19,088 bases of DNA from positions 1 through 19,088 of the forward strand of contig CBDUXZ010000002.1 of NCBI GenBank assembly GCA_965371325.1. The letters run 5' to 3'. Made by a program: the position numbers and the translations under genes. The notes below the pieces were generated by a model. That model saw only the letters and a list, made by a program, of their open reading frames with translations, was not told where the DNA came from and ran no database searches. This document shows positions 4,938-15,424 of the stretch, piece after piece. Each line of letters starts with the position of its first letter. Within the stretch, counting starts at the first letter, position 1. Origin of the DNA: CBDUXZ01 sp965371325 [NCBI: uncultured bacterium] (GTDB taxonomy: Bacteria > JAUYMQ01).

Positions 4938-4969
4938 GGCGCCCTGTCACAGCTCGTGGTAAAATGATC

Positions 4970-4990
4970 GGGGTCAGGTCTCTATATTGC
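4970..4990 (+). repeat. REP-family repeat copy C (inner left border)
   Basis: This 21-bp copy begins GGGGTCAGGTCTCTATATTG. It is the perfect reverse complement of 6019-6039 and forms the nearest inverted-repeat pair around the transposase gene. After it the sequence diverges (TCG rather than GC). Confidence 0.85.
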
Positions 4991-5092
4991 TCGTTTCTTC
5001 TGAAGCAAGGTCCTCCGTTCGGTTCAAATCTCGTTCTCCGATCTCCCTCGGATGCGGTTTCACAAAAAACTGTTTCCGTGCTGGAGATCGCC

Positions 5093-6034
5093 ATGGCAAG
5101 GCCACTTCGACTCGAATTTCCAGGGGCACTCTACCACCTCACCGCACGCGGCAACGCGCGTCAGACAATATTTCTTGACAAGGATGATTACTCACGATTC
5201 GTAGCGCTGCTTGGTGAAGAGGTCACAGCACGCTCCTGGCGCTGCCACGCGTACTGCTTGATGCCTAACCACTATCACCTTTTGATGGAAACCCCGGATG
5301 CGAATCTTGTCCGCGGCATGCACCGCTTGAATTGTCGGTACACGCAATGGTTCAATCGCAGACATGAGCGGGTCGGTCATCTGTTTCAGGGTCGTTACAA
5401 AAGCATCATCGTCGAGAGCCAAAACTACCTGCTTGAGCTGGCTCGTTACATAGTGCTCAATCCGGTGCGTGCCGGTATCGTCCCTTGCCCGGGAGATTGG
5501 CCGTGGAGTAGCTACCGCGTGACGGCGGGGGAGCTGAAGGCGCTGGATTGGATGAAGCCGACTTGGCTGCTCGAACAGTTCAGCGGTGAGCCTGACGGTT
5601 CCCGGCGAGCGTATCGAAAATTCGTTGCACAGGATGCGGGATTGGCTTCGCCCTGGGAGCGACTGAAGGGGCAAATCTGGCTGGGGGAGGCGGTTTTCCT
5701 GTCAGAAATGGAAAGCCTTATCCGAGGAAGGAAGTTCCCCGAAGTTCCGCAGGGACAGATCCGACCGGACGCCCGGGGTCTCCAACCGGTCCTGACCTTC
5801 ATAGGCAGGCAATTCGGGATCAGCCCTGATTCTGTTCTGCTGGGAGCACATCAGCAGGCTTTTCAGGCTGCCGTATACTTGCTGAGGCAGGAAGTTCTGC
5901 TCAGGCCGAAGGACATTTCAGCGTTGTGCGGAATTTCACCTTCTCGCGTATGTCATATCCGGCGTGAGCTTGAGAGGAGCGGTAAGGGAAAGCGACTCAT
6001 CCGGCTACTCAGGGGGCGCAATATAGAGACCTGA
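5093..6034 (+). CDS. REP-associated tyrosine transposase (Y1 HUH family)
   Basis: This is a 313-residue single-strand transposase of the Y1_Tnp/RAYT family. The N-terminus MARPLRLEFPGALYHLTARGN is family-typical. The HUH metal-binding motif is NHYHLL (His60, His62), preceded by CHAYCLMP. The catalytic tyrosine is probably Tyr119 in LARYIVLNPVRAG, followed by PWSSYR. The segment LFQGRYKSIIVE also matches. The C-terminal third (about 240-305) holds an HTH-like stretch, DISALCGISPSRVCHIRREL, similar in style to the DnaA-like tail seen in some subgroups. The start at 5093 has GGAG 6 bases upstream; longer in-frame starts reach into the left repeats and are not supported. The last five residues (RNIET) and the stop codon are encoded by the right repeat copy. 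Base composition looks less GC-rich than the neighbours, consistent with transfer. All visible catalytic residues are present, so it could be active. Confidence 0.9.
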   Translation: MARPLRLEFPGALYHLTARGNARQTIFLDKDDYSRFVALLGEEVTARSWRCHAYCLMPNHYHLLMETPDANLVRGMHRLNCRYTQWFNRRHERVGHLFQGRYKSIIVESQNYLLELARYIVLNPVRAGIVPCPGDWPWSSYRVTAGELKALDWMKPTWLLEQFSGEPDGSRRAYRKFVAQDAGLASPWERLKGQIWLGEAVFLSEMESLIRGRKFPEVPQGQIRPDARGLQPVLTFIGRQFGISPDSVLLGAHQQAFQAAVYLLRQEVLLRPKDISALCGISPSRVCHIRRELERSGKGKRLIRLLRGRNIET

Positions 6035-6508: not shown

Positions 6509-7099
6509 ATGGCAGATGAAATTCTCACATTGACCGACACCGCGCGCGAAAAAATCACGGACATCCGGGAGGCGCAGAATCGACTTGACGCCTGCATCCG
6601 GGTGACTGTGAAGCAGGATGGCATCGCCTCCTGGAGCTACGATCTGCGCCTGGTTTCGGCGGATGAAAAATCCGACGACGACGAGATCGTCGATTCCGGC
6701 GGCGTTCTAGTTTACATTGACGAAGAGAGCGTTCCTCGCATACAGGGAGCGACGCTCGACTTCGTAACCGGGATGTCGGGAAGCGGCTTCAAGTTTGACA
6801 ATCCGAACCAGCCGGAGGGTGCGTCGGATCCGCTCGTCTTGCGCGTTCAGAAGGTCCTTGAAGATAAAATAAACCCCGGCGTTGCCAGCCACGGGGGTCA
6901 CATCATGCTCCTCGGGGTGCAGGAGGGGACAGCCTACATCCGGATGGGCGGCGGCTGCCAGGGCTGCAGCAGCGCTGACGCCACCCTCAAGCAGGGAATT
7001 GAAGAGACGATCAAATCCGAGATTCCGGAAATTTTAGCCGTTCTCGACGAGACCGATCACGCGGCGGGAACGAACCCCTATTACAAGTCCGATAGGTAA
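6509..7099 (+). CDS. nfuA: Fe-S cluster carrier NfuA
   Basis: This 196-residue protein is close to the 191 residues of E. coli NfuA. NfuA binds a [4Fe-4S] cluster between two monomers and delivers it to apo-proteins such as aconitase, especially under oxidative stress or iron limitation. The N-terminal half (about 5-105) is the degenerate A-type carrier domain without cluster cysteines; it has LTLTDTAREKI and ends in SGSGFKFDNPN. The C-terminal NifU domain (about 108-180) carries MGGGCQGCSSADATLKQGIE with ligands Cys150 and Cys153. The start codon is the conserved Met; GGGAGAGA stands 8 bases upstream. It is followed 22 bases later by aguB. An aconitase gene, a classic client, is present 8 kb downstream. 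Confidence 0.92.
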   Translation: MADEILTLTDTAREKITDIREAQNRLDACIRVTVKQDGIASWSYDLRLVSADEKSDDDEIVDSGGVLVYIDEESVPRIQGATLDFVTGMSGSGFKFDNPNQPEGASDPLVLRVQKVLEDKINPGVASHGGHIMLLGVQEGTAYIRMGGGCQGCSSADATLKQGIEETIKSEIPEILAVLDETDHAAGTNPYYKSDR

Positions 7100-7121: not shown

Positions 7122-8011
<890 letters not shown>

Positions 8012-8015
<4 letters not shown>

Positions 8016-9298
8016 CCCGGCGCCGTTCCGCCAGGCGCCGCCGATCCGCGGGACGGGATCGTTCAGCCGAAAAGGTCCGCGCCGGGAATCGCGACCGTTC
8101 CACCGAACCGCCCCGCACCGCGAAACGCCGTCGTCCTGATAAGGAAAGCCGCCCGGTCCCCAAGCGCCGGCCTTCGCAAGAAAAACCTCTCGCCAGGAAG
8201 GATCCTCCCGCCAGGAAAAGACGCCCCGCCGGGAAGGATCGCCGCCCTCCACCGAAACCGCCCGCAGCTCCTCGCCATCGCATGCCGGCCGAGTTCGAGC
8301 CCCACGTGGCGACCTGGATTAGCTGGCCCCACCACGCGCCGGACTGGCCCGGAAAACTTGCCACTATCCAGTGGGTGTACGTCGAAATCGCGCGCGCTCT
8401 CGCGCGCAGCGAGCCCGTACGAATTCTTGTCAAGGATGCAGCCTCCCGCACGCGTGTGCGCAAACTTCTTGCCAGGGCGCATGTCCCGCAGGAAAATATC
8501 GCCTTCTACGTCGTCCCCACGAACCGTTCCTGGATTCGCGACTACGGCCCGATCTTTGTCCGCCGTGGACGCGAGATCGTGATGACCGACTGGAAATTCA
8601 ACGGCTGGGCGCGCTACGCGAACTGGCGTTTCGACAACACGGTGAACGCGAAGATTGCGAAGTTTCTCGGCCTACGGCGGATCACGCCGCGCGCCGGAAA
8701 AGTGGACGTCGTCCTGGAGGGCGGAAGCGTCGATGTGAACGGTCAGGGGACATTGCTCACGACCGAGGCGTGCCATTTATCGAAGGCGCAGGCGCGCAAT
8801 CCCGATCTCTCGCGGGTCGGTCTGGAAAAGTTGTTCCGGGAGTGGCTGGGGGCGAGGCAGGTGATCTGGCTCGGGGAGGGTATCGCAGGCGACGACACCC
8901 ACGGCCACGTGGATGACATCGCGCGGTTCGTTGACCCCACGACGATTGTCGCGGTGCGGGAGGGGAACCGGCGCGATGAGAACCGGGAGCCGCTGGAAGA
9001 GAACCTGCGGCGGCTGCGGGAGGCGCGCGATCCCCAGGGGCGCCCTTTCCGAGTGGTGACGCTCCCCATGCCCGAGCCGATCCGGTACGAAGGGGAGAGG
9101 CTTCCCGCGAGCTACGCGAACTTCTACATCGGAAACCGGACGGTGCTTGTTCCGACCTTCAACGACCCGAATGATCTTCTTGCTCTCGACACGCTGAGCC
9201 GCCTCTTCCCGGGGCGGGAGGTCATCGGCATTCATTCGGTGGATCTGATCCTGGGTCTCGGAACGATCCACTGCCTCACCCAGCAGCAACCTGGCTGA
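8012..9298 (+). CDS. aguA: agmatine deiminase with Arg-rich N-terminal extension
   Basis: This enzyme hydrolyses agmatine to N-carbamoylputrescine plus ammonia. The catalytic domain (about residues 91-428) begins with the family-typical MPAEFEPHVATWISWPHH. Key residues are Asp177 in WIRDYGPIF, Glu237 in LEGGSVDVNGQG, His299 in DDTHGHVDDIARF and the nucleophile Cys421 in GLGTIHCLTQQQPG. The start is uncertain. The GTG at 8012 overlaps the aguB stop codon (GTGA) and yields 428 residues with a 90-residue tail containing about 27 Arg and 9 Lys and no aromatic residue. The ATG at 8282 gives a normal 338-residue enzyme but leaves an unusual 266-base gap. Neither start has a good Shine-Dalgarno. I choose 8012 because the frame stays open for 90 codons in step with an 18-bp repeat. 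The core assignment is secure and the extension is a hypothesis. Confidence 0.85.
8018..8251 (+). repeat. Decayed 18-bp minisatellite encoding hexapeptide repeats
   Basis: Thirteen consecutive 18-bp units can be laid out in frame with aguA. Examples of encoded hexamers are RRRSAG, RDRSAE, RDRSTE, RRRPDK, KRRPSQ, KDPPAR and KRRPAG, with a loose consensus (R/K)-x-R-(S/P)-A-x. The best DNA matches are CGCCAGGAAGGATC at 8191, CGCCAGGAAAAGAC at 8209 and CGCCGGGAAGGATC at 8227, exactly 18 bases apart. The other frames on both strands also show periodic proteins here, as expected for a repeat at DNA level. Confidence 0.7.
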
Positions 9299-12797: not shown

Positions 12798-13802
12798 ATG
12801 GAAGAAAGGCTGATATTTCTCATCGGGGCGCCGCGATCCGGCACGACCCTGCTCGCCCGGATGCTCTCATCCCACTCGGCTATCCATGGCCGCCCCGAGC
12901 CGCATCTCATCGTGCCCCTGGCGCATCTGGGATTCTACGGCCGGGTCGACAAGGCGCCCTACGATCCCTTTATCGTGCAGCAGGCGGCTGAAGAGTACGT
13001 TCGCGATCTGCCGCGGGGCGAGATCGACTATCTGGACGCGCTGCGGGCATACACCGATACACTCTACGAACGAATGCTGGCGCCCTCTAACAAGAAGCTC
13101 TTCCTCGACAAGACGCCGGCCAACTCCCTGGCGCTTCCGTTCCTCGGAAAACTCTACCCGAAGGCGCGGTTCGTCGTAATTACACGGCACCCCGTTGCCG
13201 TCTTTGTCTCCTACGCTGAATCCTTCTTCGACGACGACTACGACGTCGCGCTGAGCCACAACCCGATCCTGGGCCGCTACGTGCCGGCCATCGCGAAGTT
13301 TCTGCGGGAGAAGCCCGCGCCGCTTGTTCACGTACAGTACGAGCAGCTCGTGGCGCAGCCCGAGGCCGAGATGAAGCGGATCTTCGCCTTTCTCGGGCTC
13401 CCCTTCGAGCCGGGGACGATCGAGTACGGCGGGCAGGAGCAGGGGGGGAAGGGGCTTGGCGATCCGATCAACGTGGCGCGCCATACCCGGCCCATGACGG
13501 CGTCGGTGGAGAAATGGGCGGAGGTGCTCGCGGGAGATCCGGTGAGGCTGGAGAAGGTGCAGCGGGTTACCGACCGGCTCGACCCCGCCGATCTGGCCGC
13601 GTGGGGTTATCCGGTCGAAACGCTCTATGAGGCCATCGTGCGTCTCCGGGGAGCTCCGCTCCGGCCCCGGCGCGCGCGGCTCACGCGATACCGGCTCGAG
13701 CGGAAACTTCTTGTCGCGCTCCGTCGCAACATTCATCAGAACGCGCTTGGCCGCCTCCTCAAGCGGTTCCGCTTGGCCCTCGACGTAATCCTCCGCGATT
13801 GA
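12798..13802 (+). CDS. PAPS-dependent sulfotransferase family protein
   Basis: This is a 334-residue sulfotransferase-fold protein (Sulfotransfer_3 type), which transfers a sulfuryl group from PAPS to an acceptor. The 5'-phosphosulfate loop is IFLIGAPRSGTTLLARML at residues 6-23. The 3'-phosphate-binding segment is FVVITRHPVAVFVSY (Arg130 and Ser138). The helix KKLFLDKTPAN with the conserved K(T)P and the later LVHVQYEQLVAQPEAEMKRIFAFLGLPF are standard for the family. The acceptor cannot be read from sequence; bacterial relatives act on glycans, lipids or small molecules. The start at 12798 has GGGGAAG 8 bases upstream; an upstream GTG at 12765 gives 11 extra residues without a supporting signal. 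The basic C-terminal tail (LRPRRARLTRYRLERKL) may be membrane-peripheral. It is transcribed away from the cyclase. Confidence 0.85.
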   Translation: MEERLIFLIGAPRSGTTLLARMLSSHSAIHGRPEPHLIVPLAHLGFYGRVDKAPYDPFIVQQAAEEYVRDLPRGEIDYLDALRAYTDTLYERMLAPSNKKLFLDKTPANSLALPFLGKLYPKARFVVITRHPVAVFVSYAESFFDDDYDVALSHNPILGRYVPAIAKFLREKPAPLVHVQYEQLVAQPEAEMKRIFAFLGLPFEPGTIEYGGQEQGGKGLGDPINVARHTRPMTASVEKWAEVLAGDPVRLEKVQRVTDRLDPADLAAWGYPVETLYEAIVRLRGAPLRPRRARLTRYRLERKLLVALRRNIHQNALGRLLKRFRLALDVILRD

Positions 13803-14053
13803 AAAGCCACCCTAGGCCCCCCCTGTGCTTCCGTACTCGACGGGTCCCGTCCCCCGCGCGGCGCGACGACGGCGCGATCGCCTCGCGCGTCGGGGAAGGT
13901 CCCGCAAACCCCGTAGAGCATTCCAGCGATGCCTCGGGACTGGTCCCCGGCGCGCGAGGGCGCCGCCGTTTTGCGCCTTTTGCGCGGGGGAATCCCGTCT
14001 GCGTGCGGAAGCCCCTGGGGCACTCCAGCTTCCAACGGGACTCTTTATCTATC

Positions 14054-15424
14054 ATGATAAGATGGTACGAGAAGCTTCCGCCCCGAGCGGGCGTCTACGA
14101 GACCACTGCGATGACCGAATACATCAGTCCGTGGATGGAGGGGGTCGACGAGCGGGCGCCGGCGCTTTCCGGAGATCTCGACGTCGACGTTGCGATCGTC
14201 GGTGCGGGCTTTACGGGACTCTCCGCTGCACTCGCGCTTCGCGAGCAAAACGTCTCCGTCTGCGTGCTCGAGGGGGAAATCGCCGGCTACGGCGCGAGCG
14301 GCCGCAACGCGGGACACCTCACGCCCTCAATCGGGAAGGATCTTCCCACGCTCTCCCTCATGTTCGGGCGGTCGCGTGCGGCCGAGCTGGTGCGCCTCGT
14401 CGAAGCGGGGGTCAGTCACGTCGAGCGCTGCATTGAAAAGCACGCCATCGATTGCGCCTACGAGCCCGTGGGGAATGTTATTGCGGCGGTGCACCCCAGG
14501 CAGTTTGCGGCGATCGATCGCGCGGCCCGCGCGGGAGAGAAGTTCGGGGCCGACGGCGAACTGCTCGAGCCGGACGAGATGCGCAAGCGTGGCATTCCAG
14601 CGCGGTTCCTGCGCGGTTTTCTGGAGCGGCGGGGTGGGATTCTTCATCCGGGCCGTTACGTCCGGGGATTGCGTCGCGCCGCACTGGCGGCGGGTGCGAA
14701 GGTTTTCGAAGAGACGCCGGTCCAGCGCATTCAAGACGGCGAGCCCGCCACGCTTCACACGCCGGGCGGCCGTGTCCGGGCGCGGATGGTCGTTCTTGGC
14801 ACGAACGCCTTCACCGCGGATCTCGGCTTTCTCCGAAGTCCCTTCATCCGGCTGAATGTCTATCTCTTCCGCACGGCGCCCCTTGGCGACGCCCGGCGCG
14901 CCCGGCTGGGCTGGCAGGGGCGCGAGGGAATCTACACCGCCCACGAGATGCTCGAGAGCTACCGCCTGACCGACGACGACCGCATCGTCGGCGGCGCCAA
15001 GACCGTCCGGTACGCATACGGAGGCCGGGAGCTTCCCTACCAGGATCCGCAAACCTTCGCGTTTATCGAGCGCGCCTTCCGAGATCGGTTTCCGGAGCTT
15101 GGAGATCTCGCCGTGACGGATCGCTGGGGCGGTCCGATCGCGATCACCCTAGATTTTCTTCCCCTGCTCGGTCGAACCGGGGCGCGCGGGAACGTCTTCT
15201 ACAGCCTGGCCTACGCGGGCCACGGCATTGCGATGGCGAGTTACGCGGGCGCCTTGCTTGCCGATCTCATGCTCGATCGTGATGGCCCGGGGAAAACGCT
15301 CTCCGCCCGGCGGCGAATTCCGCTTCCGCCGGAGCCCTTCCGCTGGCTTGTTTTTCGCGCGCTGACCGGCGTCTTCGGCGCCATCGACGCGCGGGTCGAT
15401 CGCGCCGCCTCCACACCGAATTGA
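14054..15424 (+). CDS. DAO-family FAD-dependent amine/amino-acid oxidoreductase
   Basis: This is a 456-residue flavoprotein of the D-amino-acid oxidase (DAO) superfamily. The dinucleotide-binding loop VAIVGAGFTGLSAALAL is at about 46-62 and Glu73 ends the second strand. The second FAD contact GYGASGRNAGHLTPSIGKD follows. The C-terminal flavin-binding part reads VTDRWGGPIAITLDFLPLLGR and YSLAYAGHGIAMASYAGALLADL. The N-terminus (WYEKLPPRAGVYETT) and these motifs resemble gamma-glutamylputrescine oxidase (PuuB) and related enzymes, so an amine or N-acylated amine substrate is plausible but unproven. The start at 14054 has no good Shine-Dalgarno. The frame is open for 85 codons upstream, but that part looks like non-coding GC-rich sequence. 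It lies 251 bases after the sulfotransferase and 99 bases before acnA. Confidence 0.85.
   Translation: MIRWYEKLPPRAGVYETTAMTEYISPWMEGVDERAPALSGDLDVDVAIVGAGFTGLSAALALREQNVSVCVLEGEIAGYGASGRNAGHLTPSIGKDLPTLSLMFGRSRAAELVRLVEAGVSHVERCIEKHAIDCAYEPVGNVIAAVHPRQFAAIDRAARAGEKFGADGELLEPDEMRKRGIPARFLRGFLERRGGILHPGRYVRGLRRAALAAGAKVFEETPVQRIQDGEPATLHTPGGRVRARMVVLGTNAFTADLGFLRSPFIRLNVYLFRTAPLGDARRARLGWQGREGIYTAHEMLESYRLTDDDRIVGGAKTVRYAYGGRELPYQDPQTFAFIERAFRDRFPELGDLAVTDRWGGPIAITLDFLPLLGRTGARGNVFYSLAYAGHGIAMASYAGALLADLMLDRDGPGKTLSARRRIPLPPEPFRWLVFRALTGVFGAIDARVDRAASTPN

Follow-up and report, generated by a model that had tools for sequence, protein, structure and literature searches.

An arginine-rich hexapeptide repeat in frame with an agmatine deiminase-family gene: a probable polycationic N-terminal tail

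In the window analyzed here, a 19,088-nt stretch of a contig from an uncultured bacterium, 90 codons rich in arginine lie between the stop codon of an aguB-like gene and the point at which the agmatine deiminase-family core of the next gene begins. Does the aguA-like gene begin with this segment and so encode a basic N-terminal tail, or is the segment a non-coding spacer, and, if it is translated, could the tail have a function?

Gene Pair and Protein Family

The aguB-like gene (7122-8015, forward strand) encodes a carbon-nitrogen hydrolase of the N-carbamoylputrescine amidase family (PF00795, E = 1.5e-69); its score against TIGR03381, 326 bits, falls short of the curated cut-off of 410 bits. 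The TGA stop codon of this gene (8013-8015, forward strand) overlaps a candidate GTG start (8012-8014, forward strand) by four nucleotides, GTGA. From this GTG the aguA frame runs through 90 codons without a stop (8012-8281, forward strand) into MPAEFEPH at 8282; both the open frame and the overlapping, usable start had been pointed out in the first-pass annotation, and both were confirmed. GTG 8012 is the only in-frame ATG, GTG or TTG upstream of ATG 8282, and so the sole option for an enzyme starting ahead of MPAE.

The core (8282-9298, forward strand) matches PF04371 (PAD_porph) over model positions 1-321 of 321, with E = 1.2e-116. Residues H299, D301, and C421, to which we ascribe presumed catalytic roles, are invariant in a 41-row alignment. 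The protein scored 271 bits against the equivalog model TIGR03380 (cut-off 382) and 282 bits against the subfamily model NF010070 (cut-off 483). As these NCBIfam cut-offs were missed, the agmatine and N-carbamoylputrescine function names are based on family membership, motifs, and aguB-aguA pairing, by which the core is a putative agmatine deiminase. The best-scoring solved structure was 1xkn, other solved relatives being 2jer and 3h7c; they share the core with the window protein from end to end, including the invariant His, Asp, and Cys, and the adjacent aguB is a further feature in common with the family. In nine of the 13 solved relatives listed, the aligned region begins at chain residue 3-10, and in the window protein only at residue 83-93.

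In the AlphaFold2 model built on the 41-row alignment, pLDDT is at least 90 in 282 of the 428 residues and the core is predicted confidently, whereas residues 1-89 are all coil, with ten-residue pLDDT means of 37-68. A translated tail would thus, according to this model, very probably be disordered.

No SD-like motif was found upstream of GTG 8012, ATG 8282, or aguB. Five other genes of the window have SD-like matches of 4-5 bases (NfuA, ORF 6070, PMT, and the genes that we take to encode a sulfotransferase-like protein and aconitase), and a sixth, presumably AhpC, has a match of 3 bases. A coupled start at GTGA may do without such a motif; at ATG 8282, an isolated start 266 nt past a stop, one would be expected, and its absence there argues against translation beginning at the core.

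Composition and Repeat Structure of the Segment

The 90 codons specify 27 Arg, 16 Pro, 10 Ala, and 9 Lys residues; with 36 Lys and Arg against nine Asp and Glu the net charge is +27, and Phe, Trp, and Tyr are absent, which bears out the earlier description of a strongly basic, aromatic-free tail. A Pfam search with these 90 residues gave no match to any known tail family at E ≤ 0.001.

An 18-nt (six-residue) period extends over the segment. Autocorrelation over its whole length gave an identity of 0.468 at lag 18 and 0.500 at lag 36; the mean of codon shuffles at lag 18 was 0.305, and none of 5000 shuffles matched the observed value. Tandem Repeats Finder reported only the best-kept stretch, 8186-8240 (forward strand), with period 18, 3.1 copies, 74% matches, and 10% indels; since it picks up only these 3.1 copies, the array is diverged. 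The earlier count of about thirteen 18-bp units is fair on this evidence: thirteen degenerate units could be cut by hand.

Evidence for and against Coding

The openness of the aguA frame is weak evidence for coding. In mononucleotide shuffles of this low-T segment the frame stays open in 23% of cases, a rate that suits a non-coding spacer; on the opposite strand, two of the three frames lack stops along the entire segment. The antisense ORFs were set aside as composition-driven, although one of the frames on that strand, with the same wobble position as aguA, still scores a pN/pS of 0.81.

Codon choice is evidence against coding. GC3 of the tail is 0.63, compared with 0.71-0.87 in the other non-transposase genes of the window. 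Under a synonymous-codon model trained on the neighboring genes, the tail has a log-likelihood per codon of -0.05, while the minimum among 136 in-frame 90-codon stretches, taken from the same training genes, is 0.01. This lack of host codon bias favors a spacer.

The differences among the units, on the other hand, are concentrated at third codon positions, which is evidence for coding. Identity at lag 18 for codon positions 1, 2, and 3 is 0.57, 0.57, and 0.26 (chance 0.34, 0.32, and 0.28); at lag 36 the positions differ less (0.58, 0.49, and 0.44). With units compared as 18-mers in a fixed register without indels, the aguA frame has a pN/pS of 0.77, the lowest of the six frames; the other five range over 0.81-1.17, the nearly as low value of 0.81 belonging to the wobble-sharing antisense frame. 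Among simulated stop-free arrays of similar identity, evolved under a simple neutral model, pN/pS was at or below 0.77 in 0 of 400 and the contrast between positions was matched in 1 of 400. Such an asymmetry is unexpected for a decaying non-coding array and points to some constraint on residue type.

A structured RNA in the segment was considered and rejected, folding being no better than in shuffles (z +1.3); an Rfam search of the window at gathering thresholds gave no match.

Distance of Relatives and Gene Neighborhood

The AguA relatives available for comparison are distant. In a scan of genome contigs, top identity among the best 80 of at least 576 relatives was 61%. Group searches with the tail in the query gave best identities of 55% (118 genomes), 63% (101 genomes), and 60% (95 genomes), and those with the core only 64% (61 genomes) and 58% (68 genomes), the 101- and 61-genome searches having some genomes in common. 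In the contig scan (among the matches listed) and the five group searches, no relative exceeded 64% identity. A quick tree of 149 rows has the window sequence on a long branch (0.59) at a fork without resolution. The presumed aconitase of the window, compared with 22 genomes, reached at best 68% (G013) and singled out no lineage. Finally, the HesB-NifU fusion of NfuA type (6509-7099), which scores below the curated NfuA cut-off, had a match at E ≤ 1e-25 in only one of 33 genomes of AguA relatives, and there over residues 91-194 only; this single partial match suggests that the host belongs to a lineage other than those sampled.

Three further observations concern the neighborhood and distribution of the gene. 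First, the ORF at 4964-6034, which we take to be a REP-associated tyrosine transposase-like gene, has a GC3 of 0.61, lower than any of the twelve other genes in the comparison (0.71-0.87), as would suit a recently acquired gene. Second, an ORF about 4.5 kb after aguA (13799-15424) presumably encodes a protein resembling PuuB-type FAD-dependent oxidoreductases, a possible tie to putrescine use. Third, the viral collection IMG/VR yielded one AguA locus (L091, 51% identity), an AguA-family gene at 1464-2507 with no aguB detected on its contig; it may be host DNA or a carried gene.

Start Sites and Reading Frame in Relatives

Upstream regions were compared in 114 distinct relatives. These come from the loci up to L154, each distinct 600-nt core start being counted once, and all have an aguB stop within 600 nt upstream. 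This set leaves out loci without an aguB neighbor (34 of 174 rows in a larger set), duplicates, and loci L155-L173. Starts are available ATG, GTG or TTG codons, that is, candidates rather than proven starts, and the relatives are not independent samples.

An in-frame start is available ahead of the core in 113 of the 114, the exception, L118, having none. The positions just before the core are conserved, with G at -3 in 93 relatives, F or Y at -2 in 95, and R at -1 in 92. Given these starts and this conservation, the enzyme of the relatives most likely begins upstream of MPAE. The statement that agmatine deiminases normally start at MPAEF therefore did not hold, nor is the "conserved start" at 8282 the first available one in relatives; start sites of AguA should not be called at MPAE. 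The residues before the window core are R at -1, H at -2, and R at -3, so that the conserved LG[YF]R is reduced to R. Upstream starts in 113 relatives and an Arg at -1 in both the window and most relatives speak against a spacer; the Arg match itself is weak, since with 30% Arg in the tail one could easily stand there by chance.

As to the frame between the genes, which the first-pass annotation had proposed to check for stop codons and frameshifts in orthologs, these distant relatives (best 64% identity) gave a divided answer: the aguA frame has no stop as far back as the aguB stop codon in 88 of the 114, but is closed in 26, in line with a spacer. The window's frame relation is shared by 82 of the 88 open relatives. 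By type of overlap, 53 have a 4-nt NTGA overlap, 11 a 1-nt overlap, and nine a longer one, while in 41 a start occurs only after the stop or, in one case, not at all. In this frame the 4-nt overlap comes in part by default, since three of the four possible bases ahead of TGA (A, G or T) yield a start codon. Some closed gaps are as long as the segment in the window (312 nt in L004 and 404 nt in L056), so that spacer length alone proves nothing.

In composition the tails of relatives (867 residues) are only mildly basic, with 17% Lys and Arg, 8% Asp and Glu, 1.5% aromatics, and 11% Arg. Among the 138 rows that have aguB upstream (duplicates counted), extensions reach at most 52 residues and net charges at most +8; with 90 residues and +27, the tail in the window is longer and more basic than that of any relative examined. 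Of the earlier view that a polycation tail on this enzyme is unusual, the part on length and charge stands, while an N-terminal extension in itself is normal.

Length Variation and Repeats in Relatives

The extensions vary in length within a single clade. The 149-row tree contains a clade of 29 rows of Acidobacteriota, mostly of one order (that of the 95-genome search). In 14 hand-picked rows of this clade the frame is always open, in the same relation as in the window, with starts 20-52 codons before the core, and the tail begins with [M/V]AR[L/V/M] in 11 of the 14. Among the remaining 15 rows, seven are open, all with the window's frame relation, and eight are closed, with scattered frame relations. 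Tails differ by 66 nt within the sister pair L027/L104 and by 72 nt between L043 and L122.

Short-period repeats were sought in relatives' tails of at least 74 nt and appeared at p < 0.05, uncorrected, in five of 17, the other 12 being without significance. The periods are 12 nt in L125 (0 of 2000 codon shuffles) and 30 nt in L135 (p 0.0005) and L058 (p 0.008); L052 and L126 have weak signals. The L125 protein (1636-2763) carries Ser/Lys/Pro tetrapeptide repeats, an independent case of a repeat-built tail. In an Ignavibacteriaceae AguA (L066, 430-1527) the extension is Lys-rich, with 27 residues and a tail GC3 of 0.19, and the in-frame starts after the aguB stop are TTG only.

A synonymous bias in substitutions, proposed earlier as a check of coding, was found in part: it is present among the window units but mostly lacking in relatives' tails. 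In every one of the 14 equal-length pairs listed, third positions hold two thirds or more of the differences within the first 50 codons of the core; in the tails of the same pairs the third-position share exceeds one half in only four of 14.

Origin and Possible Role of the Tail

We lean toward a reading in which the aguA-like gene would begin with the segment 8012-8281 and a ribosome finishing aguB would restart at the overlapping GTG. The product would be a 428-residue enzyme in which some 90 disordered, polycationic residues precede a normal deiminase core. This tail may be an overgrown form of the linker, short, mildly basic, and variable, that members of the family carry at the N terminus. 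It would have grown by tandem duplication of the 18-nt unit with the frame preserved; the units would then have diverged under selection for amino-acid type, with R or K at fixed spots and P, A or S between them. With no catalytic role, the tail could make electrostatic contact with polyanions such as RNA, DNA or polyphosphate, weakly and without regard to sequence. Translation of the tail is, in our view, probable; a selected binding role, should the tail be translated, is a tentative proposal that we hold somewhat more doubtful than not. A translated tail would either bind polyanions weakly or be nearly neutral.

The second of these is the main alternative, if a rather unlikely one: a translated linker under little selection, tolerating in-frame repeat growth and basic by chance of the expanded unit. 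It agrees with the fast shifts in length and composition of relatives' tails, with their differing repeat periods, and with the rarity there of the third-position excess seen in the core. It accounts less well for the third-position freedom among the window units and for a net charge far beyond that of any relative.

A spacer role for the segment, as the decayed remains of an untranslated minisatellite ahead of a start at ATG 8282, is improbable. The lack of host codon bias, the frequency of open frames in shuffles, and the closed frames of 26 relatives fit it; the codon-position asymmetry, the upstream starts of the relatives, the bare ATG 8282, and the folding of the segment, no better than shuffled, do not.

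Still less probable is translational control, in which 27 Arg codons and a PPP run would slow the ribosome when arginyl-tRNA or EF-P is short and so tune AguA to arginine, the peptide being incidental. Agmatine is made from arginine, and RPPPKPP stands just ahead of the core of this Arg-rich tail, but the Arg codons are mostly the common CGC (14 of 27) rather than rare ones, and 11% Arg in relatives' tails is little for such a mechanism. PF04371 is named for peptidyl-arginine deiminase, and it is barely conceivable that the deiminase domain takes its own tail as substrate or pseudo-substrate, by self-citrullination or with tail arginines blocking the pocket; if true, this would cut the charge of the tail and couple polyamine synthesis to its release from nucleic acid or polyphosphate.

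Should the polycationic tail that we favor be translated and used, an enzyme of a polyamine pathway would carry its own polycation, and in-frame repeat growth would tune the charge and length of an enzyme tail; otherwise, the locus is an example of tolerated N-terminal drift. The 20-52-residue tails of relatives in one clade offer a natural length series on whether such tails matter.

Comparison with Known Basic Tails

Among the titles and abstract openings of the literature on N-terminal extensions or intrinsic disorder of agmatine deiminase, none seems to describe such a tail. Low-complexity regions of prokaryotes, a general class of compositionally biased segments to which the tail would belong, have been linked to nucleic-acid binding among other roles, in a study whose abstract does not mention agmatine deiminase (PMC6821194). 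Closer parallels are described in bacterial proteins with basic repeats. The KPAA C-terminal domains of AlgP and PhaF are, like the window tail, short tandem basic Pro/Ala repeats, predicted to be disordered and variable in repeat number (PMC9239181). As reported there, AlgP is located on polyphosphate granules, removal of its repeat domain disturbs granule spacing, and KPAA peptides bind DNA in vitro (PMC9239181). The window tail differs in being Arg- rather than Lys-based, N-terminal rather than C-terminal, with a period of six rather than four residues, and attached to a metabolic enzyme. Mycobacterial HupB, like the window AguA, joins a basic low-complexity tail to a folded domain, and this C-terminal domain is reported to be required for nucleoid association; unlike AguA, HupB is a nucleoid protein, with PAKK and KAAK motifs (PMC5676037). 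AlgP and HupB may indicate what such tails can do rather than what the window tail does, and the window tail appears to resemble those of AlgP, PhaF, and HupB in kind, a likeness that need not mean homology.
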